Origin: Eubacteriales bacterium
Lineage (GTDB): Bacteria > Bacillota > Clostridia > Lachnospirales > Lachnospiraceae
Direction: 5' to 3'
Assembly (NCBI GenBank): GCA_030531555.1
Contig: JAUNNI010000018.1
Span: 1 to 37,864, forward strand
DNA length: 37,864 nt
Positions 2,973 through 35,387 of the stretch are shown here, piece after piece; positions within the stretch are counted from its first letter, which is position 1, and the number at the start of each line of letters is the position of its first letter. Both the position numbers and the translations under genes were made by a program. The notes under the pieces were generated by a model that was not told where the DNA came from, made no database searches, and saw only the letters and a list, made by a program, of their open reading frames with translations.

Positions 2973-4391
2973 ATGTATGATAGATATCAAAGCCCATTAT
3001 CAGAACGTTATGCCAGTAAAGAGATGCAGTACATCTTCTCCCCTGACAAAAAGTTTAAAACATGGAGAAAACTTTGGATTGCATTAGCTGAGACAGAATA
3101 CGAGCTCGGCCTTGAAAGCATCACAAAAGAACAGATTGAAGAATTAAAAGCTCACGCAGAAGAAATCAACTTTGAAGTTGCAAAAGAAAGAGAAAAAGTA
3201 GTAAGACATGATGTTATGTCCCACGTATATGCATATGGTCTTCAGTGTCCTAATGCAAAAGGAATTATTCATCTTGGCGCAACTTCCTGCTACGTTGGTG
3301 ATAATACAGATATCATTATCATGACAGAAGCTTTAAAACTCGTTCGTAAAAAATTAGTGAATGTTATCGCAGAACTTTCCAAGTTCGCTTTGAAACATAA
3401 AGATCTTCCAACTCTTGCATTTACACATTTCCAGCCTGCACAGCCAACAACTGTTGGAAAACGTGCGACTCTTTGGATCAATGAGTTAATGATCGATTTA
3501 GAAGACCTTGATTATGTTATTTCCACAATGAAATGAACAACAGGTACACAGGCCAGCTTCCTTGAACTTTTCAATGGCGACCATGAAACAATCAACCAGA
3601 TTGATAAGAAGATCGCTGAGAAGATGGGATTTGAAAGCTGTCATCCAGTTTCCGGACAGACTTACTCCCGCAAAGTGGACAGCCGTGTGATCAACGTATT
3701 AAGTGGCATCGCTCAGTCCGCTCACAAATTCTCCAATGATATCCGACTTCTTCAGCATTTAAAAGAAATCGAAGAACCATTCGAGAAAAACCAGATTGGT
3801 TCCTCTGCTATGGCATACAAACGTAATCCAATGAGAAGTGAGCGTATCGCTTCCCTTGCAAATTATGTGATGGCGGACGCAATGAACCCAGCCTTAGTAG
3901 CTTCTACCCAGTGGTTTGAAAGAACTTTAGATGATTCTGCCAACAAGAGACTTTCTGTACCAGAAGGCTTCCTTGCAATCGATGGTATCCTTGACCTTTA
4001 CTTAAACGTAGTAGATGGTCTTGTAGTATATCCAAAGGTTATCGAAAGCCGTCTTATGAAAGAACTTCCTTTCATGGCAACAGAAAATATCATGATGGAT
4101 GCCGTAAAAGCAGGTGGAGACCGTCAGGAACTTCATGAAAGAATCCGTATTCATTCCATGGCAGCAGGTAAAGTTGTAAAAGAAGAAGGAAAAGAAAATG
4201 ACCTTCTTGAACGCATTGCAGCGGACCCAGCATTCAACATGACAATGGAACAGCTCAACAAGATCATGAAACCAGAGAACTTCGTTGGAAGATCCCCAAT
4301 TCAGACAGAAGAGTACATCAGAGATTACGTACAGCCAATCCTTGATGCAAACGCTGAAGATCTTGGTATGACAGCTGAAATTAACGTATAA
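2973..4391 (+). pseudogene. purB: Adenylosuccinate lyase, interrupted by an in-frame TGA at 3534-3536
   Basis: Two same-frame halves (2973-3536 and 3537-4391) together make a near full-length adenylosuccinate lyase, which releases fumarate from SAICAR and adenylosuccinate in purine synthesis. The first half has the family N-terminus and the [13 protein letters not shown] block. The second has TTGTQASF, GQTYSRK, the signature SSAMAYKRNPMRSE and ELPFMATENI. At the join the frame reads STMK-TGA-TTGTQASF, whereas homologues such as human ADSL have about six residues (FRGVKG) between these blocks. The TGA plus a 15-nt in-frame loss explains this exactly: T from a TTy/TTC Phe codon joins GA from a GGA Gly codon. 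The start at 2973 has AAAAAGGAGG upstream. The second half could only restart internally, for example at ATG 3624. A real pseudogene or an assembly artefact are both possible. Confidence 0.85.
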
Positions 4392-8357: not shown

Positions 8358-9905
8358 ATGGTTACAGAAGTATGTAGTGGAATGGTACTTGGAATTGAAG
8401 GAACTCTTGTGACAATACAATCCGACATCAGTGATGGACTTCCTGTTTTTCATATGGTGGGTCTTTTATCTTCCGAAGTGAAGGAGGCAAAAGAGCGAGT
8501 TCGAACGGCCTTTAAGAATACAGGGATTCGTTTGCCTCCGAAACGAATTTCTGTAAATCTGGCTCCTGCTGATTTACGCAAAAGAGGGACTGGTTTTGAT
8601 TTGGGAATTGCAGTGGGACTTTTGATTGCCATGGGATTGATTCCCGAGGAAGAGGCATCTGACTTTTTCTATCTGGGAGAACTTGCACTTGATGGAAGTA
8701 TCTGCAAAGTGCAGGGAACTCTTCCTATATTAAGGGAGGCGCAGAGACAAGGATACCATAAATGTATGATACCGGAAGAAAATTTACAGGAGGCAACTCT
8801 TTTATCAGGTCTGGAGCTTTATACTTTTTCTTCTTTGCTTGATGTATATGATTTTTTTCGGGGAGAATTGGCAAGAAGTGAAAATGGGGAGATCTTACCT
8901 TTTTTGTGTGATGGGAAAGTGAAGAAGACGGAAAACAATCATAGGTCAAGGATTGATTTTTCAGAAATTAAAGGCCAAAAGCTGGCGAAAAGGGCATTGA
9001 TGATTGGGGCAGCCGGTTTTCATAATGTTTTTTTGGATGGACCTCCCGGAGTAGGGAAATCCATGTTGGCTTCTGCAGTATCTGGAATTCTGCCGGAAAT
9101 GACCCAGGAAGAGATCATTGATGCCACCATGATCTATAGTGTAAAAGGCTTACTGAATGAGGAAGTGCAATGGATTGGTGAGCGACCATTTCGTAATCCC
9201 GGTCATGCCATTACCAAGATTGGACTTTTTGGCGGAGGAAGTGATCCAAAACCAGGAGAAATATCTTTGGCCCATCATGGGGTTCTGTTTTTGGATGAAT
9301 TTAGTGAGTATAAAAAAGACATTTTGGAAATGCTTCGTATTCCTTTAGAAGAACACCAGATTCTGTTGGTTCGCAATGAACGAACCATATCTTACCCGGC
9401 TGATTTTTTATTGATTGCTGCTTCCAATCCTTGTCCTTGTGGATATTATCCGGATTTGTCTCTCTGTCATTGTGGAAGCAATCAGATCAGTCATTATCAG
9501 AATAAACTCAGTGGACCGATTCTTGACCGCATGGATTTATTTGTTCGATGTGAAAGAATGGATTATCGGGCAATCACGCAAGAAAAGGAAGAGGAGACCA
9601 GTGGTCAGATTCGGGAGAAGATTATGTTGGCCTGGGAACTGCAAAAAGAAAGATTTACCGGGAAAAAAGAGTATTTTAATGGCAGAATGTCCCCACAGGA
9701 TATAAACAAATACTGCAAGCTATCTTCTGCCGACAATCGTATTTTGGAAAGGGCTTTTGAGACCTATGGTATGACAGGCAGAGGACTGAATCGTGTTTTA
9801 AAAGTTGCCAGAACTATTGCAGACTTAGATGGCAAAGAACAGATTGCCACAGAGCATTTAGAAGAAGCATTGTTATATCGACGATCTTCAAGATGGGAGA
9901 GATGA
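8358..9905 (+). CDS. comM: YifB/ComM family Mg-chelatase-like AAA ATPase
   Basis: A 515-residue protein with an N-terminal lon-protease-like S5 fold domain (GIEGTLVTIQSDISDGLPVFHMVGL, SVNLAPADLRKRG), a central AAA ATPase and a C-terminal Mg-chelatase extension. The Walker A motif GPPGVGKS starts at residue 228, and LFLDEFSE is Walker B. The cysteine cluster NPCPCGYYPD...CHCG is typical of YifB. In transformable bacteria ComM is a hexameric helicase that extends branch migration of incoming single-stranded DNA. dprA lies 4 nt downstream, a classic pairing in recombination and competence. Whether this organism is naturally transformable cannot be told here. Confidence 0.92.
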   Translation: MVTEVCSGMVLGIEGTLVTIQSDISDGLPVFHMVGLLSSEVKEAKERVRTAFKNTGIRLPPKRISVNLAPADLRKRGTGFDLGIAVGLLIAMGLIPEEEASDFFYLGELALDGSICKVQGTLPILREAQRQGYHKCMIPEENLQEATLLSGLELYTFSSLLDVYDFFRGELARSENGEILPFLCDGKVKKTENNHRSRIDFSEIKGQKLAKRALMIGAAGFHNVFLDGPPGVGKSMLASAVSGILPEMTQEEIIDATMIYSVKGLLNEEVQWIGERPFRNPGHAITKIGLFGGGSDPKPGEISLAHHGVLFLDEFSEYKKDILEMLRIPLEEHQILLVRNERTISYPADFLLIAASNPCPCGYYPDLSLCHCGSNQISHYQNKLSGPILDRMDLFVRCERMDYRAITQEKEEETSGQIREKIMLAWELQKERFTGKKEYFNGRMSPQDINKYCKLSSADNRILERAFETYGMTGRGLNRVLKVARTIADLDGKEQIATEHLEEALLYRRSSRWER

Positions 9906-18495: not shown

Positions 18496-18951
18496 TCATT
18501 GTCCTTTCTTTTTGGAATATTTTCCTGTTTTTTCATATTTTCTTTTGTGTTCTTCGGTATGCTGGCTTTCTATGTAATGCTTTACATTTTCCAAAACAGT
18601 TGTCCCTGTTGTAGCAATGAAATAGCTGCTGCTCCAGAAAGCATCTCCCCATAGCTGCTTTTCTATCTCTTCCCGGTAAAGGGAACGAACTTCTTTCGAC
18701 AGCTGTGTTTTCAGTGTGGTCACCAGCTTGGAAGGTGCCACATCCGGAGGCATGGATACCAGCATATGAATATGATCCCGGTCTGTTTCTGCAGAAAGCA
18801 TCTCTCCGTCAAATCTTCCACAGAGATAGGCTGCGTGGTTCTTCATATAGTTACCAATCTCATTGGTGATCACTGGACGCCGGTATTTTGTAACAAAGAC
18901 GATATGGTAAGTCAGCAGATATACGGAGTGAGCCTTGTGATTGTAATCCAT
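18496..18951 (-). CDS. tnpA: IS200/IS605-family Y1 (HUH) transposase TnpA
   Basis: A 151-residue protein, full length for the family. It begins HSVYLLTYHIVFVTKYRRPVI, has the metal-binding HUH pair in DRDHIHMLVSMPP, and the nucleophile tyrosine in ENVKHYIESQ. It cuts and rejoins single-stranded DNA at the element ends during replication. The start ATG at 18951 has AAAGGGGATAT upstream on the - strand. It is divergent from tnpB with about 290 nt between. No stop or frameshift is seen, so it looks active. Confidence 0.95.
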   Translation of the reverse strand: MDYNHKAHSVYLLTYHIVFVTKYRRPVITNEIGNYMKNHAAYLCGRFDGEMLSAETDRDHIHMLVSMPPDVAPSKLVTTLKTQLSKEVRSLYREEIEKQLWGDAFWSSSYFIATTGTTVLENVKHYIESQHTEEHKRKYEKTGKYSKKKGQ

Positions 18952-19238: not shown

Positions 19239-20627
19239 ATGATGTACCGTACGAGGCAGATCCGTATCAAAAAGGGACACCGGTTCTATCCTTACTGTAA
19301 GGAGATGTGCAGTGCCTCGACAGCGCTCTATAATCGTGGGACTTATCTGATCCGTCAGTATGCTACGTCTGAAAAACGCCTGGAAGAAGGGCAGGAGCTG
19401 ACGGAAAACCAGAAAGAAGCAATAGAGCTGATCCGGAAAGTAACTTTGGGGACAAAGTACTTTCCAAAGAAGAGATGGCTGACTTATGGGCAGCTGGATT
19501 TTGTATTAAAGACTACGGACGATCCCGCATACAGAGGGCTGCCGTCCCAGGCGAACCAGCAGATCTTAAGAAGCATCCTGAGAAATTTCAAGTCTTTTTT
19601 TGAAGCATTGAAAGAATATCAGAAGCGGCCGGAATGTTTTACGGGAAGACCGAAGATGCCCGGATATAAAAAGAAAGGCAGTATGACGACAGCCGTTCTG
19701 ACAAACCAGATCTGTACCGTGAAGGAAGGGAAGTATATTCGCTTTCCGGGAACGGCACAGCGTATCAACATCGGAAAGGTGGAAAAGGATGAGCGTCTGA
19801 AGGAGGTAAGGATCAAACCCCATGCGGACAGTTTTGTCATTGATATCGTCATGGAGAAAACTGACCCTGTAAACGTGCGGGAGAATCCACTGTCAGGGAT
19901 GGATATGAAAACATTAAAAGCACATCTTGCTTCCCTTGAAAAGAATCCGTACCGTGTGGCATCCATCGATCCGGGAACCAATAACATCTGTGCGGTCACC
20001 AATAATTTTGGAGAACAGACATTTTTAGTAAAAGGCGGGATCCTGAAGTCGGAAAATCACTATTACAATAAAAAACTGGCGAAGTATCGCTCGGAAGCAA
20101 AGATATGCAATGATGTCCATTATACGAAAAGGATCAGCCGTCTGCATGACAAAAGGAACCGGATCGTAAAAGACCAGATGCATAAGATCAGCCGGATCAT
20201 AACGGACTGGGCCGTGAAGAACAGGGCAGACCTGGTGGTCTATGGACATAATATCTTTCAGAAGCAGTGTATCCGTCTCGGACATGGGAATAACCAGAAA
20301 TTTGTGCAGATACCATTTCAGGTATTGGCAGACATGCTCCGATACAAACTGGAAGAGAAGGGGATCGCTTTTCTGGAAACAGAAGAAGCCTATACTTCCC
20401 AGGCGGATTACCTTGCACAGGATGCAATCCCGGAATATAACAAAGGCAAAGAAAAAACCGAGATGTCTGGAAAAAGGAGAACAAGAGGACTGTATCATCA
20501 CAAGGATGGAACAATCAGTAATGCAGATATCAATGGAGCCGCAAATATCATGAGAAAAGTATTCCCAAACGTGTCAGAATGGGATAGAGGTCTTGTGGAC
20601 AGACCATATGCCGTAAGGATCGCATAG
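19239..20627 (+). CDS. tnpB: RNA-guided nuclease TnpB of the IS200/IS605 element
   Basis: A 462-residue TnpB, ancestor-type of Cas12. The N-terminal helix-turn-helix-like region begins TRQIRIKKGHRFYPYCKEMCS. The RuvC triad is present: D244 in VASIDPGTNNICAVTN, Glu383 in LETEEAYTSQ and D430 in SNADINGAANIMRK. Between RuvC-II and -III, the usual CxxC zinc finger is replaced by ADYLAQDAIPEYNKG, a feature I associate with one Firmicutes subgroup. TnpB uses an omega RNA from the element's right end to cut matching DNA, which favours element retention. GAAGGGG is the ribosome-binding site. Its codons are more GC-rich than the neighbouring genes. It appears intact. Confidence 0.93.
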   Translation: MMYRTRQIRIKKGHRFYPYCKEMCSASTALYNRGTYLIRQYATSEKRLEEGQELTENQKEAIELIRKVTLGTKYFPKKRWLTYGQLDFVLKTTDDPAYRGLPSQANQQILRSILRNFKSFFEALKEYQKRPECFTGRPKMPGYKKKGSMTTAVLTNQICTVKEGKYIRFPGTAQRINIGKVEKDERLKEVRIKPHADSFVIDIVMEKTDPVNVRENPLSGMDMKTLKAHLASLEKNPYRVASIDPGTNNICAVTNNFGEQTFLVKGGILKSENHYYNKKLAKYRSEAKICNDVHYTKRISRLHDKRNRIVKDQMHKISRIITDWAVKNRADLVVYGHNIFQKQCIRLGHGNNQKFVQIPFQVLADMLRYKLEEKGIAFLETEEAYTSQADYLAQDAIPEYNKGKEKTEMSGKRRTRGLYHHKDGTISNADINGAANIMRKVFPNVSEWDRGLVDRPYAVRIA

Positions 20628-27217: not shown

Positions 27218-27453
27218 CATAACTGAAATTTCACTGATATTTTTTATACCTCCCTCCTTTTTTCTCGTATTATTAAGTGAAAATAAAAATAATACAAATT
27301 CTTACCAAACATGACGATTTCAGGAGGGAGTTACAAAATGGAGATGAATAAATTTACAGTATCATGAAGAAAATAAAGAAAGGATAGAATCCTTAGTAGT
27401 TTTGTTATATAATAATATATTATGCTTTAAATAGTATAGAAGGAGAATGGGAT
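27218..27453 (+). promoter_or_regulatory. Leader region of the NHLP-type export operon
   Basis: Features seen: CTCCCTCCT (27250-27258), the exact complement of AGGAGGGAG (27322-27330), a ribosome-binding site; an inverted repeat GTATTATT/AATAATAC (27267-27274, 27288-27295) that could be an operator; a 9-codon ORF; a hairpin AAGGAT-AGA-ATCCTT; and a TATAAT (27408-27413) without a good -35. The next gene has GAAGGAG before its ATG. No other gene is here. Confidence 0.5.
27338..27367 (+). CDS. Nine-residue ORF with a strong ribosome-binding site (possible leader peptide or remnant)
   Basis: MEMNKFTVS then TGA, with AGGAGGGAG placed 7 nt before the ATG, a stronger site than many real genes here. 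It may be a leader peptide or the stub of a lost precursor peptide. It shows no similarity that I recognise. Translation is unproven. Confidence 0.35.
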   Translation: MEMNKFTVS

Positions 27454-27642
27454 ATGAACTTAAGAGAATTATTTGATTTTAACACAATTGCATCCAATGC
27501 AGCATTAGATGCAATGATTCAGGATACACTTGGCAGATACGGTGCATGTGACCGCATGGAATTAGATGATGACGATCTTGATTGGGTTAATGCAGCAGGT
27601 TCAGATGCTATGCAGTATGATTTTGACGAGAAGGAGGATTAA
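27454..27642 (+). CDS. Candidate exported peptide precursor with a double-glycine-like leader
   Basis: A 62-residue acidic protein: a helical N-terminal half (MNLRELFDFNTIASNAALDAMI) and then ELDDDDLDWVNAAGS. This matches the C39-peptidase leader pattern: L37 (-12), D41 (-8), L42 (-7), V45 (-4), A47-A48 (-2/-1), with Ala in place of the usual Gly, or cut one residue later after A48-G49. Cleavage would release an acidic tail of 13-14 residues ending DFDEKED. It is the first gene of an operon that includes a C39 ABC exporter, the natural partner. The sigma-factor gene begins 3 nt after its stop, so translation is probably coupled. It could instead be a regulatory peptide. I recognise no named family. 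Confidence 0.6.
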   Translation: MNLRELFDFNTIASNAALDAMIQDTLGRYGACDRMELDDDDLDWVNAAGSDAMQYDFDEKED

Positions 27643-27645
27643 TGC

Positions 27646-28158
27646 ATGGCGGCGGTAACTCTTGATGAAGTTTATACAAAATATTATGAAAAAGTGAAAT
27701 GTTTGGTAAGAAGAAAGATTTCAGATACAAATGAGGTGGAAGATTTTACACAGGATATTTTCCTGAAAATTGCACAAAATATAGAGAAATATGATCCGGA
27801 AAAGGCGTCCTTATCCACCTGGGTTTACACCGTTTCCAATCGTATGATTGTAGATTATTATCGCTCCAGAAAAATATTTGATACCATTCCGGAAGAGAAT
27901 GGGGAAGAAGGTCATTTTCCAAGTCAGCTGATTGATGATCAGGGATTGGATGCAGGTCTTTTAAAAGAGGAGCAGCTTCAGACTTTGGCAGATGCTTTGG
28001 GAAAACTGAAGCAAAAGGAGAGAGATTTGATCATCCTTCATTATTATAGTAACATGACTTTGAAAGAAGTGGCGATACGAATGGGAATGTCTTATGCTAA
28101 TGCTAAGATCATTCACAAGAAAGCAATCGGAAAGTTAAATTTACTGATGTGTGCTTAG
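27646..28158 (+). CDS. ECF-type sigma-70 family RNA polymerase sigma factor
   Basis: A 170-residue sigma factor with only regions 2 and 4. Region 2 is EVEDFTQDIFLKIAQNIEKYDPEKASLSTWVYTVSNRMIVDYYR. Region 4 is LKQKERDLIILHYYSNMTLKEVAIRMGMSYANAKIIHKKAIGKL, with a recognition helix. It probably directs RNA polymerase to this operon's promoter or related ones. GGAGG lies at the end of the preceding peptide gene. A STAS protein and an RsbW-like ATPase in the same operon are likely to control it. No target motif can be called from one site. Confidence 0.88.
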   Translation: MAAVTLDEVYTKYYEKVKCLVRRKISDTNEVEDFTQDIFLKIAQNIEKYDPEKASLSTWVYTVSNRMIVDYYRSRKIFDTIPEENGEEGHFPSQLIDDQGLDAGLLKEEQLQTLADALGKLKQKERDLIILHYYSNMTLKEVAIRMGMSYANAKIIHKKAIGKLNLLMCA

Positions 28159-28191
28159 TGAAAAAGTATGTGAAATAACATGGAGACCAAG

Positions 28192-28671
28192 ATGGCAAAA
28201 GATAAAAAATTAATATTTCGAGAGAAGTCGCTGGATCGTATCTCCTCACCGGAGGAGTTGGATCAATATTTGCAAGTTACAAAGCCAAAAACATGGATTG
28301 TTTTAGGTGCCATTGTAATCTTGCTGATTGGTATCATATCCTGGGGCTTTTTTGGGCGTTTAACCACAAAAATTACTGTGGCAGTTTCCGTTGAAAAAGG
28401 TAGAGCAATCTGTTATATACCAGAAATAAAGGAACAAAATGTTGAAATTAAAGAGATACATATTGGCGATGAAAGTTATTCCTTATATCCAACGGGACTT
28501 GTCAAACTGATGGTGAATGATAATTTACCGTCTGCAGTAAAAGAGTGTGGTCACTTGATTAATGGAGAAGTAGTATTTCCATTGGGAGTAAATGGAGAAC
28601 TGGTCGACGGAATCTATCAGGGAGAAATCATCATAGAGCAAGTTAGGCCGATCCATTTTCTTATGAATTAA
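28192..28671 (+). CDS. Short NHLM-type HlyD-like membrane protein
   Basis: A 159-residue protein with FREKSLDRISSPEELDQYLQVTKPKTWIVL, the N-terminal signature of NHLM bacteriocin-system secretion proteins, followed by one membrane helix (about residues 34-55) and a beta-rich extracellular part (ITVAVSVEKGRAICYIPE..., then GEVVFPLGVNGELVDGIYQG). NHLM HlyD-type proteins bridge the ABC exporter to the outside. Those I know from cyanobacteria are longer with coiled coils. This one lacks the hairpin, so it may be a Gram-positive minimal form. ATG 28192 has GGAG upstream; ATG 28180 is an alternative. Confidence 0.7.
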   Translation: MAKDKKLIFREKSLDRISSPEELDQYLQVTKPKTWIVLGAIVILLIGIISWGFFGRLTTKITVAVSVEKGRAICYIPEIKEQNVEIKEIHIGDESYSLYPTGLVKLMVNDNLPSAVKECGHLINGEVVFPLGVNGELVDGIYQGEIIIEQVRPIHFLMN

Positions 28672-28707
28672 TTGAAAATAACGAAATTAACATATAGGTA
28701 ACATAAC

Positions 28708-30924
28708 ATGAGTACAAAATACAAAATAAAGCAGTGCGTGACAAAAGGAGTTGTAAAAGTTCCCATGATCATGCAGCTTGAAGCGACAGAATGTGGTGCG
28801 GCATCTTTAGCCATGATCATGGCCTATTTTGATAAATGGTTACCTTTGGAACAGACCAGACAGGATTGTTCGATTTCTCGAGATGGATCAAGTGCAAAGA
28901 ATATTTTGAGAGCAGCAAGAAGTTATGGCATGGAGGCTCACGGATATCGAGTTTCTTTGGAGTCTTTGAGAAAAGAAGGTCCATTTCCCTGTATTATTCA
29001 TTGGGGATTTAATCATTTTGTGGTTTTAAATGGATTTAAGAGAAATAAAGCTTACATTAATGATCCGGCTAGAGGATTTGTGAGGGTATCCATGGAAGAA
29101 TTCGATGATAATTTTACAGGAGTCATGATTATTATCGAACCAGGAGAAACTTTTAAACCCTCCGGTAGAAGAAAATCTCTTTTAGAACTTGCAAAACAAA
29201 GAGTAGCAGGCAGTGAAAATGCAATAGTTTTTGTGGCAGTTACCACATTCCTTGCCAGTTTGATCAGTCTTAGTATGCCGGCCTTTTCCAGAGTTTTTAT
29301 GGATCGCTTACTTACGGGACAGAATCCAACGTGGCTTTATCCATTTGTCGGTCTACTTAGCTTTTTAACTTTTTTACAAATTGTGATTCGTTTTATCTCA
29401 GAGAGCTATTGTTTGCGGATTCAGGGAAAAATGGCGACCGTGGGAAATGCAGCTTTCATCTGGAAAGTCCTGCATCTTCCAATGCGATTTTTTGGGCAAC
29501 GTATTTCTGGAGATATCGCCAATCGTAAAACGATGAATGACAGTATTGCCAAAACTATAGTAAATATTTTGATGCCATTGATTTTGAATTCATTTATGAT
29601 GGTATTTTATTTGCTTGTTATGGTTCGATATAGTCCAATTCTTACCCTGGTGGGTGTTTCTTCTATTTTGGTAAATGCATTTTTATCGTGGATAGTATCT
29701 ATAAGAAGAATCAATATTACAAGGATTCAAATGCGTGATGCCGGAAAGTTAGCGAGTTCTACCATTTCTGGCATTGAAACCATCGAAACATTGAAGGCCA
29801 GTGGAGCAGAAGATAGCTTTTTCGAGAATTGGGCAGGTTTACAGGCAGCGGTCAATGCACAGGATGTGGCATTTGCCAGATTAAATCAAGATCTCGGCCT
29901 AATCCCGGAATTAGTCAGTTCACTTACAGATCTTCTGGTACTAGGGCTGGGTCTATGGCTGGTCATTGCCGGTAAATTTACACTGGGTATGGTTATGGCC
30001 TTCCAGGGTTTATTGAACGCTTTTATGACACCCGTTTCTTCAACCGCAAAAACTGGGCAGGCTTTACAGAAGATGGTCAGTCAAATGGAACGTGTGGATG
30101 ATGTTATGAATTATCCGGAGGATAAAATTTTCTGCGCAGAAAAGGGTGTTAGCCATGCGGAACTGGAAGATTCCTTCCAGGAAGAAAATATAGATTATCA
30201 TAAATTAAGTGGTAAAGTGGAAATAAAAAATATTACATTTGGATATTCAAGGCTGGCACCGCCACTGATTCAAAATGTTAGTATGACAGTGGAAGCAGGA
30301 AAAAAAGTAGCTCTTGTTGGGACTTCCGGGTGTGGAAAATCAACATTGGCAAAGCTGATTTCCGGATTATATAAACCTTGGTCTGGACAGATCATATTCG
30401 ATGGGAAAGAAATTTCAGAAATTGATCATCAGGTTTTTACCGGTTCTCTTGTCGTTGTCAATCAAGATACAAATATGTTTGCGGATACTTTGGCGAACAA
30501 TATAAAGATGTGGGATAATTCCATTGAGGATTTTGAGATGATTCTTGCGGCGAGAGATGCACAGATTCATGATGTTATTATGGAAAGAGAAGGCGGTTAT
30601 AATCATATGTTCTTAGAAGGGGGAAAAGATTTCTCTGGAGGACAACTTCAGCGTATCGAGATTGCCAGAGCTTTGGCCCAAGATCCGACCATTGCAATTT
30701 TTGATGAAGCAACCTCTGCACTGGATGCCAAAACAGAATTCCAGGTAGTAAAGAGTATTAAAGATCGTGGGATTACTTGTATTGTGATTGCCCATCGCCT
30801 TTCTACTATTCGAGATTGTGATGAGATTATTGTGCTTGACCATGGTCAGGTTGTGGAAAGAGGAACCCATCAGGAATTATATGAAGCAGGTGGGCTATAT
30901 ACTCGCCTCATAGCAAATGAGTAG
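28708..30924 (+). CDS. NHLP-family peptide export ABC transporter with C39 peptidase domain
   Basis: A 738-residue transporter in three parts. The N-terminal C39 cysteine peptidase has Q23 and C29 in MQLEATECGAASLAM, His in GFNHFVVLNG and Asp in YINDPARG. A six-helix membrane domain follows (about 165-440). The ATPase has Walker A GTSGCGKST from residue 538, signature FSGGQLQRIEIARAL, Walker B IAIFDEATSALD and the H-loop IVIAHRLST. Such proteins cut double-glycine leaders and export the core peptide. It is complete. The second ABC protein follows after 9 nt. The 62-residue peptide at the operon start is the likely substrate. Confidence 0.93.
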   Translation: MSTKYKIKQCVTKGVVKVPMIMQLEATECGAASLAMIMAYFDKWLPLEQTRQDCSISRDGSSAKNILRAARSYGMEAHGYRVSLESLRKEGPFPCIIHWGFNHFVVLNGFKRNKAYINDPARGFVRVSMEEFDDNFTGVMIIIEPGETFKPSGRRKSLLELAKQRVAGSENAIVFVAVTTFLASLISLSMPAFSRVFMDRLLTGQNPTWLYPFVGLLSFLTFLQIVIRFISESYCLRIQGKMATVGNAAFIWKVLHLPMRFFGQRISGDIANRKTMNDSIAKTIVNILMPLILNSFMMVFYLLVMVRYSPILTLVGVSSILVNAFLSWIVSIRRINITRIQMRDAGKLASSTISGIETIETLKASGAEDSFFENWAGLQAAVNAQDVAFARLNQDLGLIPELVSSLTDLLVLGLGLWLVIAGKFTLGMVMAFQGLLNAFMTPVSSTAKTGQALQKMVSQMERVDDVMNYPEDKIFCAEKGVSHAELEDSFQEENIDYHKLSGKVEIKNITFGYSRLAPPLIQNVSMTVEAGKKVALVGTSGCGKSTLAKLISGLYKPWSGQIIFDGKEISEIDHQVFTGSLVVVNQDTNMFADTLANNIKMWDNSIEDFEMILAARDAQIHDVIMEREGGYNHMFLEGGKDFSGGQLQRIEIARALAQDPTIAIFDEATSALDAKTEFQVVKSIKDRGITCIVIAHRLSTIRDCDEIIVLDHGQVVERGTHQELYEAGGLYTRLIANE

Positions 30925-30933
30925 GAGGATGTC

Positions 30934-33117
30934 ATGAGTTGGTTTGACGAGCAGATTCGATACCGCAAGTTAAAAGATGATGAAATCCTCTCAGAGGCTT
31001 ATGTGGAGATCGCCAGTGCAGTGGTAGGCCATCGTCTACAGCAGTCTTGGCAGGATGAAAGCTATGCAGCGAAAACGGCATTGGAAGAGATTTGTAAATA
31101 TTATCATGTGAAGATGAGGGACATTCCACCTGGCATAAAAGAGTTCAATGAACAGCTTGATTATGTATTACAACCTTCCGGCATTGCCCGCAGAAGTGTA
31201 CGTTTAAAAGAAGATTGGTATAAAAATGCAATTGGTGCTATGATTGGAAGTAGAAAATCCGATGGAAAAGTCATTGCATTGATTCCCGGAAAAACGGATG
31301 GCTATATCTATGAAGATTTGGAACAGGGCAAGAGCATAAAGATTAATAAAGAAAATGCCAAACTTTTAGAGGAAGAAGCAATTGTTTTTTATCGTCCATT
31401 TCCTCTTCATTCTATGAGCGAGAGAGATTTATTTCAGTTCATCAGAGAGTGTCTGTCAGGAAGAGACTATCTTTGGTATTTTGTGGCTCTTTCTGTCATA
31501 ACTTTGATTGGTCTGATGACTCCAAAGTTTGGTCATTTGTTATTTTCAGAAGTTGTAGAATACAAAAGAAGTTCTTTGCTGTTGGCAACTCTTTTGTTTT
31601 TCGTATGCGTTACCATCAGCTTACGGCTTCTTGAAGCTACAAAAAGTCTGTTAGTAGCCAGAATAGGTTCTAAATTGAACCTTTCTGTTCAGGCAGCCGT
31701 TATGATGAGACTGTTATCCATGCCGACAAAATTTTTCCGTAATTATACGGTAGGAGAATTAAATCAGCAGATTAAAAAAATGAATCGATTGTGTTCCCTT
31801 TTAGGATCTGCTGTTTTTTCGATGGGATTTACCGTTGTCTTTTCCTTGGTATTTCTGATTCAGATTTTTTATTATGCGAAAGCTTTGGTAATTCCTACGG
31901 TTTTTATTACATTGCTTTCCTTTGCTTTCAGCATTTTATGTATCCTGTTTGAAATGAAACATAATAAAACAGTGATGGAGCTTTCAGGAAATGAACAAGG
32001 GATGGTTTATTCCATGATCACTGGAATATATAAAATTCGTTTATCTGGTGCTGAGAAACGTGCCTTTGCCCGTTGGGGAAAGCTTTATGCAAAAGAAGCG
32101 ACAGAAATGTATCAGTCACCTTGGATTTTAAAATATAGTAATGTGATTACTTCAGCCATTGGATTGTTTGGAAATATATGGATATATTATGTGGCGGTGG
32201 CAAAAGGGATAAGTGTTGCGGATTATTATGCATTTACCATGTGTTATGCTTATATAACCAGCGCATTTTCTTCTTTTTCAGATATGGCTGGAACAATTGC
32301 TACGATTCGACCAATCCTTCAATTGGTTAAGCCAATGTTGGAAACGGAGCCAGAGATTTCTGAGGAGAAAGAAGTTGTAACAAAACTTTCCGGTAGAATT
32401 GAGTTGTCTCATGTATCTTTCCGATATCCAGATTCTGATCAATATTTATTGGATGACGTATCCTTAAAGATTCGCCCCAATCAATATGTGGCGGTGGTTG
32501 GCAAAACGGGATGTGGCAAGTCAACCTTGGTGCGATTGTTGTTGGGATTTGAAACTCCTACGAAAGGAGCCATATATTATGATGGGAAGGATCTCAATAA
32601 ATTGGATAAAAAATCCTTACGTAGAAAGCTGGGAGTAGTATTACAGAATGGAAAATTAATCAACGGAGATATTTTATCCAACATTACAATTTCTGCTCCA
32701 TGGTTACAAGAGAAGGATGCCTGGAAAGCCGCAGAAATTGCTGGCATCGCGGATGATATTCGCCAGATGCCAATGGGAATGCACACGATTATTCACGAAG
32801 GTTCCGGAGTGATTTCCGGAGGGCAGAGGCAAAGAATTATGATTGCTCGTGCGGTGGTGGCGAACCCAAAAGTGCTTTTTTTAGATGAGGCAACGTCGGC
32901 ACTTGATAACATTACACAAAAACATGTATCGGATGCCATGGATCATATGCGTTGTACCCGTATTCTTATAGCTCATCGACTGTCCACAATTAAGCAATGT
33001 GACCGTATTTTAGTGCTGGATCAAGGAAAAATCATGGAGGATGGTTCTTATGAAGAATTGATGGCAGTCAATGGTATCTTTGCTCAATTGGTGGAAAGAC
33101 AAAAAATAGATGAATAA
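30934..33117 (+). CDS. NHLP-family export ABC transporter, permease/ATPase subunit 2
   Basis: A 727-residue protein without a peptidase domain. The N-terminal soluble region (about 1-165) matches NHLM ABC2 partners, with SVRLKEDWYKNAIGAMIG and EAIVFYRPFPLHSMSERDLFQFI. A six-helix membrane domain follows, and then the ATPase: Walker A GKTGCGKST from residue 523, signature ISGGQRQRIMIARAV, Walker B VLFLDEATSALD, H-loop ILIAHRLST. In NHLM systems this subunit pairs with the C39-containing one. Both nucleotide-binding domains look active. GTAGGAGG precedes the ATG. Confidence 0.9.
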   Translation: MSWFDEQIRYRKLKDDEILSEAYVEIASAVVGHRLQQSWQDESYAAKTALEEICKYYHVKMRDIPPGIKEFNEQLDYVLQPSGIARRSVRLKEDWYKNAIGAMIGSRKSDGKVIALIPGKTDGYIYEDLEQGKSIKINKENAKLLEEEAIVFYRPFPLHSMSERDLFQFIRECLSGRDYLWYFVALSVITLIGLMTPKFGHLLFSEVVEYKRSSLLLATLLFFVCVTISLRLLEATKSLLVARIGSKLNLSVQAAVMMRLLSMPTKFFRNYTVGELNQQIKKMNRLCSLLGSAVFSMGFTVVFSLVFLIQIFYYAKALVIPTVFITLLSFAFSILCILFEMKHNKTVMELSGNEQGMVYSMITGIYKIRLSGAEKRAFARWGKLYAKEATEMYQSPWILKYSNVITSAIGLFGNIWIYYVAVAKGISVADYYAFTMCYAYITSAFSSFSDMAGTIATIRPILQLVKPMLETEPEISEEKEVVTKLSGRIELSHVSFRYPDSDQYLLDDVSLKIRPNQYVAVVGKTGCGKSTLVRLLLGFETPTKGAIYYDGKDLNKLDKKSLRRKLGVVLQNGKLINGDILSNITISAPWLQEKDAWKAAEIAGIADDIRQMPMGMHTIIHEGSGVISGGQRQRIMIARAVVANPKVLFLDEATSALDNITQKHVSDAMDHMRCTRILIAHRLSTIKQCDRILVLDQGKIMEDGSYEELMAVNGIFAQLVERQKIDE

Positions 33118-33146
33118 AAATATATCATTATGAGGAGGATTATAAA

Positions 33147-33443
33147 ATGACAATTGACAAAAAAGCAAATGGAAGTGAATTAACTCTTACCTTAGGTGGT
33201 CGTCTTGATACGATGACTGCTCCACAGTTAGAAGCAGAAATTAAAAACAGTCTGGATGGTGTAACAGATTTAACCTTTGATTTTGCAGCACTTGATTATA
33301 TTTCTTCTGCAGGTCTTCGAGTTCTTTTATCTGCCCAGAAGGCTATGATGCGTCAGGGAAGTATGGTACTTCATCATGTTTCAGACGATATCATGGAAAT
33401 TTTTGAAGTGACAGGTTTTACAGATATTTTAAACATCGAATAA
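33147..33443 (+). CDS. STAS-domain anti-sigma factor antagonist (SpoIIAA/RsbV-like)
   Basis: A 98-residue single-domain STAS protein with LGGRLDTMTAPQLEAEI and LDYISSAGLRVLL. S54 aligns with the phosphorylated serine of SpoIIAA/RsbV. Such proteins free a sigma factor by binding the ATPase anti-sigma partner, and are inactivated by its kinase activity. The RsbW-like partner gene lies 43 nt downstream and a sigma factor is upstream in the same operon. GAGGAGG precedes the ATG. Confidence 0.88.
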   Translation: MTIDKKANGSELTLTLGGRLDTMTAPQLEAEIKNSLDGVTDLTFDFAALDYISSAGLRVLLSAQKAMMRQGSMVLHHVSDDIMEIFEVTGFTDILNIE

Positions 33444-33486
33444 TCAGAGAAAAATTGTTTTGCCTATATAGAAAGAAGGAATATCA

Positions 33487-33873
33487 ATGATTCCTAATCT
33501 GGAAAATTATCCAAAGGTTGTTGCTTACATGGAACAAGAATTGGAAAAACAAGAGATTAGTATGAAACTGTCCAATAAGATTAATGTGGCAGTGGATGAA
33601 ATCTATTCAAATATTGCCAAATATAGTCATGCAACATGGGGACAGGTTGTATGTTTTATCGACGATGATTTTATTCGAGTGTCTTTTATGGATAATGGAA
33701 TTCCTTACAATCCTTTGGAAGCCAGGGAACCTGACCTTACATTAAGTGCAGATGAAAGAGATGTTGGTGGTTTGGGTATCTTGTTAACTCGAAAGCTAAT
33801 GGATAATATCACTTATAACCATGAAAATGGATGCAATCATTTGGAGATTTCTTTGTCTCGATCCAAAGGATGA
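33487..33873 (+). CDS. RsbW/SpoIIAB-like ATP-binding anti-sigma kinase
   Basis: A 128-residue HATPase_c_2 protein. The N box is KINVAVDEIYSNIAKYSH, G1 is MDNGIPYNP (Asp-x-Gly) and G2 is VGGLGILLTRKLMDNITY. RsbW-type proteins bind and hold a sigma factor, and phosphorylate the STAS antagonist. Its target here is likely the ECF-type sigma factor at 27646-28158, which would be a less common pairing than sigma-B or sigma-F. Its size matches RsbW-type proteins. It has AGAAAGGAAT upstream. It could also act on a separate regulator elsewhere. Confidence 0.82.
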   Translation: MIPNLENYPKVVAYMEQELEKQEISMKLSNKINVAVDEIYSNIAKYSHATWGQVVCFIDDDFIRVSFMDNGIPYNPLEAREPDLTLSADERDVGGLGILLTRKLMDNITYNHENGCNHLEISLSRSKG

Positions 33874-33935
33874 AAATAGTCAAATAAAAATAGGAATACA
33901 AGAAAGAATCATAGATAAGAAAACGGAGAGAATAT

Positions 33936-35387
33936 ATGAAAAAACATCAGAGTTTACGATTAATCATTGCTTTATTTTTTGGGCTTTTCTTCCTGTCTAT
34001 ATTTCAGATAAAAGCTCATGCGGAATCTATTTTATATTCGCAAGTATACTATGAATATGATGCATCACGTGGCGGCTATGTTGCAACAGGAACTCCGGAA
34101 ACCAATCGTTATATTTCTATATTAGATAAAGTAAATGGAGAACCTGTTGTAGCGATTGATGACTACGCCTTTGCGTTCCATCCTAATTTAAGATCAGTAC
34201 TATTAAATAACCAATTTATTGACATTGGAGAAGGTGCTTTCATGGGATGCAGTTCTTTAGAATCCATAAATCCACCATTTATTAATACGATTCGCAGATA
34301 TACATTTTATGGATGTAGTAGTCTGACATCTTTTCGTTTTAGTTATCAGACAAAATATATTGAAGAAAGCGCTTTTGAAAATAGTGGATTGACTGATGTT
34401 TTTCTAACGGATGAAGTCGTTTCCATTGGAGAGAATGCTTTTCAAGCTCCGAATTTAGAAAAAGCAAAATTTGAAGGATCCCCATCCTACATTGCAAACA
34501 GTGCATTTGATCCAGCAAAAACAATAATTAATGCGGCATCGACTTCTACAGCAGCATCTTGGGCAATGAGAAATCATAGCACGATTATTTATACAGATCA
34601 TCCGGACATCTCGGGAGGTTCAAGTTCTTCAGGCACTTCTAATACAAATACTGGAAGTGGTAATAGCACACCAAATACCCCTGTTGTAACTGGTCCACTT
34701 ACCATAAAGAGAGCAGGTCATGCAACGGTATTTGCAGGAGAATATACCCCAGGTTTTATTATAACAAACAACAAGACAAAAGCAGTTTTTAAAAGTTCCA
34801 AACCAAGTGTTGTTACAGTTTCTTCCACTGGTGCCGTGAGCTTTAAAAAAGCAGGGAAAGCTACAGTTAAAGTTACTGTAGATGGAAAGACTTTCTCTTA
34901 TAAATACACTGTTTTAAAAAGAACACAGGCCAATGTTCTTAAGGTTGTTTACAAATATTATGTTACAAAGAAAATGTCAACAAGAAATAAAGTCATTGCC
35001 GCTGACAGCTTTATTGCAGCAAATGTTACCTACGATATGAGATATTTTAAAGGGAAAAAAATACCTGCCAGAAGCCATACTGCAAAAGGGGCTTTTGAAA
35101 AAGGGGTTGCTGTTTGTGATGGCTATACAAAAGCCTTTAATACAATCATGTCCCATTACAAAATTCCATGCAAAAAAATTGTTGGTAAAGCAAAAAGTTT
35201 TGGATCCTGGGGTTCTCATGCTTGGTCTAAGGTAAAAGTTGGAGGCAAATGGTATTATGTTGATACTACTTGGAATGATCCAATTTATGAGGCTTATTAT
35301 AGCTCTCGACATACAAAGCATTACTCTAGTCAATTATATCTTCTTGTGAGTGCAAGCTATCTTCGCAAAGATCATGCCTGGAAATAA
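33936..35387 (+). CDS. Secreted leucine-rich-repeat, Ig-like, transglutaminase-like protein
   Basis: A 483-residue exported protein. The signal peptide is MKKHQSLRLIIALFFGLFFLS..., probably cut after AHA (residue 29). Next are BspA-like leucine-rich repeats (DDYAFAFHPNLRSVLLN, IGEGAFMGCSSLESI, ESAFENSGLTDVFLT), a Ser/Gly-rich linker (SGGSSSSGTSNTNTGSG), a bacterial Ig-like domain and a transglutaminase-like domain. The triad is visible: C394 (VAVCDGY), H428 (GSHAW) and D443 (YVDTTWND). It may crosslink or cleave amide bonds at the cell surface or act on the exported peptide. It ends the operon and a terminator follows. Confidence 0.82.
   Translation: MKKHQSLRLIIALFFGLFFLSIFQIKAHAESILYSQVYYEYDASRGGYVATGTPETNRYISILDKVNGEPVVAIDDYAFAFHPNLRSVLLNNQFIDIGEGAFMGCSSLESINPPFINTIRRYTFYGCSSLTSFRFSYQTKYIEESAFENSGLTDVFLTDEVVSIGENAFQAPNLEKAKFEGSPSYIANSAFDPAKTIINAASTSTAASWAMRNHSTIIYTDHPDISGGSSSSGTSNTNTGSGNSTPNTPVVTGPLTIKRAGHATVFAGEYTPGFIITNNKTKAVFKSSKPSVVTVSSTGAVSFKKAGKATVKVTVDGKTFSYKYTVLKRTQANVLKVVYKYYVTKKMSTRNKVIAADSFIAANVTYDMRYFKGKKIPARSHTAKGAFEKGVAVCDGYTKAFNTIMSHYKIPCKKIVGKAKSFGSWGSHAWSKVKVGGKWYYVDTTWNDPIYEAYYSSRHTKHYSSQLYLLVSASYLRKDHAWK

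Follow-up and report, generated by a model that had tools for sequence, protein, structure and literature searches.

A small leader-like protein accompanies an ECF sigma factor at a C39-type peptide export operon

What is the role of a 62-residue protein encoded at the head of an operon that also carries a peptide exporter and a sigma factor? The locus that raises this question lies on contig JAUNNI010000018.1 of a Lachnospiraceae genome (Eubacteriales bacterium, GenBank assembly GCA_030531555.1), positions 1 to 37,864, and we refer to this whole stretch of 37,864 nucleotides as the window. Eight open reading frames (ORFs) occupy positions 27454-35387, all on the + strand and separated by gaps of 3, 21, 36, 9, 29, 43 and 62 nt, just as an earlier sequence-only reading had described them. 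The first gene, PEP (27454..27642, +, 62 amino acids (aa)), belongs, like its relatives, to no Pfam or NCBIfam family. The second, SIG (27646..28158, +, 170 aa), has the features of an extracytoplasmic function (ECF) sigma factor, with regions 2 and 4 (Sigma70_r2 and r4) and a TIGR02937 score of 107.6 bits (cut-off 42.9). The earlier description of the locus as an operon for export of NHLP/C39 type, equipped with a sigma factor, was borne out by the family models (TIGR03796 over its cut-off, TIGR03797 a near miss, TIGR02937 over its cut-off); the same reading had supposed that the 62-aa peptide itself is the exported product.

The reading we tentatively prefer, while rating it somewhat short of an even chance, is of a C39/ABC export operon (NHLP/LahT-type) under a dedicated ECF sigma factor, in which PEP would be a sigma partner that restrains SIG and is removed via the exporter. 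Serving as exported product would then not be the main role of PEP, which would be a small partner nearly always accompanying SIG: its N-terminal part would bind and restrain SIG, its C-terminal part would dock on the C39 domain of the exporter, and SIG would probably regulate itself. With the exporter present and not occupied by cargo, PEP would be exported or cleaved, and SIG would activate the exporter and cargo genes; with cargo saturating the exporter, PEP would accumulate and SIG would be switched off.

The association of PEP with SIG

A small PEP-like gene adjoins all five closest SIG relatives (the window's included), and none was seen at three more distant SIG loci (L081, L051 and L058). 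When 397 Lachnospiraceae genomes were searched with a PEP profile, 10 matched at E <= 5e-8 (a further six, weaker at 4e-4 to 0.01 and in reading frames of at least 447 aa, were treated as noise), and a SIG profile matched the identical ten of the 397 at E <= 1e-50, the next three dropping to ~1e-34; six of these ten genomes had contributed to neither profile. Exporter genes are present in all ten (the G383 contig begins inside the gene for the second exporter protein, ABC2), and TIGR03797, the family model for ABC2, was matched at 1e-100 in 67 of 299 genomes. The PEP-SIG pair of G237 stands without an NHLP-type exporter within the 17 kb fetched, the exporter lying elsewhere in the genome.

Named GTDB genomes hold at least 80 SIG loci, of which the best 80 were analysed: 54 score at least 150 bits and 26, used as controls, score below 125 bits, with none listed at 125-150 bits (some duplicate the profile loci: L154 is G016 and L172 is G237). 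PEP lies within 2.5 kb of SIG at 48 of the 54 upper loci vs. 1 of the 26 controls, and when divided by score the counts are 28/32 at 200 bits or more, 12/13 at 175-200 and 8/9 at 150-175. The sole PEP-bearing locus below 125 bits, L211, carries a PEP almost identical to that of L194. The upper loci come mostly from Lachnospiraceae and other Clostridia, and also from Oscillospiraceae, a Christensenella and one metagenome-assembled genome labelled Bacteroidales; NHLP-type ABC genes were found in the fetched stretch of 28 of the 54, vs. none of the 26. Judged by these distributions PEP is tied to SIG more than to the exporter, and it resembles in part a partner of FlgM kind, being encoded beside, and co-occurring with, one sigma factor.

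This association bears directly on the supposition that PEP gives rise to a peptide signal, exported without modification, in which the C39 domain would cut after the AA of PEP, the tail would leave the cell and SIG would drive its expression. PEP keeps to SIG, and 60 of the 67 TIGR03797 genomes are not among the PEP genomes (a set that may not lie wholly within the PEP search); both observations count against such a signal. The same linkage would also suit a PEP that assists SIG, whether as a co-factor or by stabilising it, or one that acts as a decoy, occupying the exporter and not itself exported. Nothing specific speaks against this proposal, and we regard it as distinctly improbable, ECF sigma partners being more often inhibitors. 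Finally, PEP and SIG both occur in variable neighbourhoods and might be hitchhikers, a neutral pair kept by linkage in exporter islands. We consider this very improbable, as PEP members share 26-44% identity with the window's PEP and yet keep their conserved residues, a promoter motif is enriched before PEP genes (see below), and one PEP-SIG pair has no exporter nearby.

Other small leader-like proteins were seen beside related genes: one at L148:8241-8447, near the gene of a more distant ECF sigma factor (8746-9273), and others at the exporter loci L081 and L060, with ends of the ELS.DDL..V.AAG or AGG kind and a short tail. They suggest that the PEP family might belong to a broader theme of this sort, as one of its branches.

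The leader-type end and the C39 domain

An alignment of 46 PEP members gives an N-terminal consensus, LxxLFDxQRFxxNxxLxxxIxxTExRY, followed by an acidic stretch and an end that is mostly [NSAT]AAG. In the window, residues 1-48 (27454-27597) comprise this conserved N-terminal part and an end of C39-leader type, with L at -12, L at -7, V at -4 and AA at -2/-1 (VNAA|G, so that the GG, GA or GS of known leaders is missing), and a 14-aa tail, GSDAMQYDFDEKED, follows (27598-27639, +). Hydrophobic residues occupy -12, -7 and -4, counted from AA|G, in 45 of 52 members. AAG is found in all 52 members read, although the alignment register is itself set by AAG; the register script misplaced L179, owing to an AAG in its upstream extension, and in L163, L189 and L197 a shift of the register by two would place GG at -2/-1 (by eye). 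The tail after AA measures 14-24 residues in 48 of 51 members (one truncated member, L202, is excluded) and 40, 44 and 54 aa in the others; tails are mostly hydrophilic, by eye, and unconserved in sequence.

We considered whether PEP might be a Nif11 or NHLP precursor and rejected this, as NCBIfam gives neither; the best match of the Nif11 model anywhere in the window genome has an E of 0.085 (14.9 bits, cut-off 32.3). A search of the PDB with the PEP profile returned one repeat-protein match and weak acyl-carrier matches, which we judged to be chance.

The presumed docking site lies in the first exporter protein, ABC1 (28708..30924, +), a C39 peptidase-permease-ATPase (TIGR03796, 904.8 bits vs. 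cut-off 853.3) whose Peptidase_C39 domain scores 120.5 bits in Pfam and holds a Cys, which we take to be catalytic, within an ECGAA stretch. By sequence, the nearest solved structure to this domain is LahT (PDB 6MPZ, E 4.3e-63, with ECGAAS aligned), and on the related protease domain and this Cys ABC1 groups with the C39 transporters of AMS/PCAT type, the LahT kind. LahT has pockets that recognise leader positions -12, -7 and -4, and it cleaves after GG, GA and GS; the parts of that paper available to us held no cleavage test of AA (PMC6363468).

Divergence between loci was compared for PEP, SIG, ABC2 and the C39 domain. Before thinning, the PEP leader follows SIG when ABC2 is allowed for (partial r 0.47, p 0.0005; reverse 0.04, p 0.37; n = 22) and when the C39 domain is allowed for (0.39, p 0.0005; reverse 0.20, p 0.12; n = 17); the N-terminal part tracks SIG only (0.34, p 0.0015; C39 0.07, p 0.36) and the motif part tracks both. 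The relationship of the motif part with the C39 domain persists at four thinnings (partial r 0.34, 0.38, 0.33 and 0.46; p 0.0015-0.011, n 12-17), being borderline when ABC2 takes the place of C39 (0.22-0.27, p 0.015 to 0.12); all these statistics come from small samples, linked genes and many tests. Because the motif part co-diverges with the C39 domain at every thinning, the sequences lend support to the idea that the end of PEP works with that domain. That the N-terminal part touches SIG we infer from co-occurrence and neighbourhood.

Several results weigh against PEP as a restraining partner of SIG. PEP is not adjacent to SIG in two of the ten genomes (G126 and G354), and 6 of the 54 upper SIG loci have no PEP nearby, two of these (L201 and L209) being at contig ends. 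Within its family the PEP of the window is atypical, lacking the YQRF. A C39 domain may not accept AA, in which case removal by export would not happen. The tail is at least 14 aa long in 51 of 51 members and starts with G, which would also fit a released peptide. When loci with alike SIGs are dropped, the correlation of PEP with SIG declines to 0.23 in the ABC2 set (p 0.05, n = 16) and to -0.03 in the C39 set (p 0.58, n = 12), and that of the N-terminal part to 0.16 and -0.02, respectively. The proposal that the divergence of PEP parallels that of SIG and not that of the exporter is thus weakened, holding before thinning and fading with it, and for this reason we lowered our confidence in the preferred reading, from slightly below an even chance to somewhat further below.

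The exported signal, a pheromone in effect, is a serious rival, if a rather doubtful one. Most members keep the C39 docking residues, and the motif part and the C39 domain co-diverge throughout the thinnings; both are as this reading would have them, as is a tail of narrow length and unconserved sequence, like those of strain-specific pheromones, and an ECF-like motif stands before many PEP genes. At two SIG loci, a response-regulator-like gene and a sensor-kinase-like membrane protein (by eye; L088:14941-17073 and L106:12809-14853) lie upstream of HlyD and might supply a receptor; relatives of this pair were found at 2 of the 54 named loci (L160 and L205) and at 0 of the 26 controls, a rarity that tells against a signal, in a search that covered this type of receptor. 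The AA at -2/-1 also tells against it, given that ORFs with GG leaders exist in the same loci. For the co-factor or decoy, the AA could be an advantage, blocking cutting yet keeping docking.

On the sequences, PEP is placed between SIG, by co-occurrence and neighbourhood, and the C39 domain, by docking motif and co-divergence. We favour a mechanism in which the exporter would govern the amount or the binding of a small partner of the sigma factor, with a FlgM-like anti-sigma factor as first choice.

A promoter motif and candidate cargo

Upstream of the window's PEP is an ECF-like promoter motif (27249..27279, +) composed of CCTCC (27249-27253), N12, CGTAT (27266-27270), N4 and AAGTG (27275-27279), with 183 nt from CGTAT to the first ATG. 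A bipartite motif of this kind (GCC, 14-16 nt, TCGTAT) is enriched upstream of PEP genes: in a held-out test on 42 groups, each gathering similar upstream regions, 19 reached p <= 0.05 and 14 the minimum possible 0.01, the window's own motif having p 0.01 (the test is not wholly independent, since the motif words had been drawn from these sequences, and the shuffles preserve two-base blocks only). Sites of at least 16 bits also occur elsewhere in SIG loci, control loci having about one third of that rate, and some precede GG-leader genes (L170, with a LysM cargo, and L204). The L170 peptide, behind its SIG-type motif, scores 56.4 bits with Pfam LysM; both there (+708 relative to SIG) and at L184 (+2026/+2412) a LysM domain is preceded, in one protein, by a short leader of GG type.

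Peptides with GG leaders are candidates for cargo. Strict GG-leader small ORFs were found at 19 of the 54 upper SIG loci (in each case one or more of them share the strand of SIG) and at none of the 26 controls. GG-motif small ORFs in the SIG loci have cores of 6-84 residues (36 counted). PEP and the candidate cargo are different genes wherever both are present, which, with the attachment of PEP to SIG, speaks against the 62-aa peptide as simply the exported product. Zinc-ribbon-like tails with Cys pairs were noticed by eye on GG-leader peptides (L179, L176, L153:9546-9863 and L193) and on forms with a PEP leader (L157, L163 and L130:8335-8691); when six such sequences were scanned, Nif11 exceeded its Pfam cut-off in two and Zn_ribbon_8 matched weakly in one. 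From their sequences these peptides look like C39-exported mini-proteins rather than modified ribosomally synthesised peptides (RiPPs). At L124, two Nif11-like precursors (1813 and 2063) directly follow PEP-SIG, with amphipathic-looking cores of 14-16 aa, and no modification enzyme was recognised nearby by eye.

The window genome has a candidate of its own. A search for the GG-leader end gave 20 matches, of which one was, by eye, a convincing small gene (further ones may have escaped, given a narrow pattern and a genome completeness of 95.7%): a 71-aa peptide on contig 86 with the leader MMNNGIIEKRNELNNRDLNKVVGG and then a 47-residue core, matching ComC and TIGR04149 weakly and below cut-off (Pfam, NCBIfam). 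Its neighbours are metA-like and transposase-like genes (by eye), and the 3 kb read around it contain no modification enzyme. The extended form of the promoter, CCTCC-N12-CGTAT-N4-AAGTG, precedes the window's PEP, the second PEP of G016 (which is another species of this genus), the contig-86 peptide and a contig-135 protein (L287:646-1629) with two SH3_3 stretches and a Sec-like start (by eye), a possible surface member of the SIG regulon. Of 48 matches to CCTCC-N12-CGTAT in eight genomes, 32 were inspected, and the AAGTG form accounted for 3 of 6 in the window genome, 1 of 4 in G016 and 0 of 22 in six genomes of the same genus without PEP matches. Counts of the shorter form are not raised in the two PEP-SIG genomes (6 and 5, vs. 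2 to 8 in the six others), and only the AAGTG-extended form separates genomes with PEP-SIG from those without PEP. One type of promoter thus appears to serve the exporter operon, the unlinked peptide with its GG leader and the surface-type protein, and it is presumably that of SIG.

The cargo of the window organism would probably be this contig-86 peptide, in unmodified form. The sequence-only proposal of an unmodified exported peptide therefore survives in part: a likely cargo does stand without a modification enzyme in the 3 kb read, and what lacks support is the 62-aa PEP as simply the exported product, since the genome encodes a different peptide with a GG leader, on contig 86, preceded by the extended promoter too; PEP might still be exported as a signal. 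Taken at its fullest, our interpretation would make PEP the anti-sigma factor of a new export-coupled switch, a soluble miniature protein with an end that mimics a C39 leader, found across Clostridia and governing a regulon of GG-leader peptides that includes the zinc-ribbon-like and LysM mini-proteins; in so complete a form we think it unlikely.

To our knowledge, how the output of exported peptides is matched to the capacity of a C39 exporter is an open problem, and a sigma factor with a near-constant, leader-mimicking partner would make such matching directly testable. The promoter motif would also offer a handle on unlinked cargo genes of the kind found in the window genome, which cluster-based genome mining overlooks.

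The exporter operon and known systems

The remaining genes of the operon begin with a short HlyD-like membrane protein (28180..28671, +, 163 aa), a probable exporter accessory, of which 46 residues match positions 1-46 of TIGR03794 at 36.6 bits, well below the cut-off of 156.2; a scan of named genomes with this protein gave no matches. ABC1 is followed by ABC2 (30934..33117, +), a permease-ATPase without peptidase that narrowly misses the TIGR03797 cut-off (699.1 vs. 709.4), then by a STAS-domain protein of anti-sigma-antagonist type (33147..33443, +; STAS, TIGR00377) and an RsbW/SpoIIAB-like HATPase_c_2 protein (33487..33873, +; Pfam), both accessory, a pair that may provide an additional input. 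The last gene (33936..35387, +) encodes a protein with LRR_5, Big_2 and Transglut_core domains (Pfam) and, by eye, a Sec-type N-terminus, and is hence not C39 cargo. No modification enzyme was found among the eight genes, as the sequence-only reading had also noted, nor was a PP2C (SpoIIE) phosphatase found among them beside the STAS and HATPase genes, in a search that covered this locus.

The operon as a whole is not a conserved unit. Searches of 61 and 299 genomes supplied 57 loci with ABC2 relatives (L050-L106, among them that of the window), and the eight-gene order, whose conservation the sequence-only reading had named as a check, was seen in the window only. The block that does recur is short HlyD-ABC1-ABC2, and after clustering STAS is found in 13 of the 57, HATPase in 7 and SIG in 8. 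G016 has the order PEP-SIG-PEP-HlyD-ABC1-ABC2, with STAS on the opposite strand. The recurring units are PEP-SIG and HlyD-ABC1-ABC2. STAS or HATPase genes lie near SIG at 13 of the 54 upper SIG loci vs. 1 of the 26 controls. ORFs with some similarity to the transglutaminase-like protein are present at 5 of the 54 and 1 of the 26 (those shown look LRR-type), and we rejected this protein as a fixed part of the operon, for want of support.

Some relatives appear to have a modification enzyme, which the window does not: a radical-SAM-like gene (by eye) occurs in 9 of the 57 exporter loci (for example L106:4961-6400), with relatives at 8 of the 54 SIG loci and 0 of the 26 controls. L106 also encodes a precursor of Nif11 type that contains repeated CxC and stretches of glycine. 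At L097 (G034:C34, another genus), a reading frame of ~2100 aa directly follows ABC1-ABC2. Elsewhere in the window, the remaining long ORFs are, by eye, ordinary-looking chromosomal genes and one mobile element. A divergent pair (18496-18951, -, and 19239-20627, +) resembles, by eye, an IS200/IS605 transposase and TnpB; an adenylosuccinate-lyase-like gene is, again by eye, split into two reading frames (2973-3536 and 3624-4391), either a broken gene or a sequencing error.

Of the described systems, the NHLP/Nif11 systems (TIGR03794/03796/03797; Haft et al. 2010, PMC2887384) share with the window the block of C39 ABC1, ABC2 and HlyD-like protein and, in the window's relatives, GG-leader peptides near the exporter. 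The window differs in its HlyD, a 163-aa stub covering the first 46 positions of TIGR03794, in an ABC2 just under cut-off, in the absence from the operon of an NHLP/Nif11 precursor or modification enzyme, and in having its own ECF sigma factor with a leader-like neighbour; the word "sigma" is absent from the main text of PMC2887384 and from PMC13289728. LahT of Lachnospiraceae C6A11 (AMS/PCAT) has the closest solved C39 domain and the same -12/-7/-4 recognition positions, but cuts Nif11-type precursors after GG (others after GA or GS), where PEP has AA (PMC6363468). The exporter itself is of a known kind, whereas no description of the PEP family, of its link with a single ECF subfamily or of the promoter was found in Pfam, NCBIfam and the literature searched (titles and abstract openings, subscription papers being mostly outside reach).

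Pheromone precursors of the ComC/BlpC type are likewise short, with a C39-type leader and a divergent tail, and are encoded beside their own regulator. PEP is similar in layout, but the regulator here is a sigma factor and not, as a rule, a two-component pair, and AA replaces GG. In actinomycete lantibiotic clusters (MibX/MibW), an ECF sigma factor and a membrane anti-sigma factor are encoded next door to each other, and genes for peptide export and biosynthesis are, as in the window, under an ECF sigma factor with an adjacent partner; those partners are membrane-bound, whereas PEP is small, soluble-looking (by eye) and has a C39-leader end. FlgM, the small partner of sigma-28, is removed by the export machine that its sigma factor serves, and the model proposed here would work alike with a different sigma type, exporter and sequence, the inhibition of SIG by PEP and the export of PEP being presumed. 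PEP may then be more than a secreted signal, informing gene control of the state of export. If this is true, an ABC exporter would, by removing PEP, report its own presence and free capacity to transcription, and the logic of FlgM would have been built on an ABC exporter.

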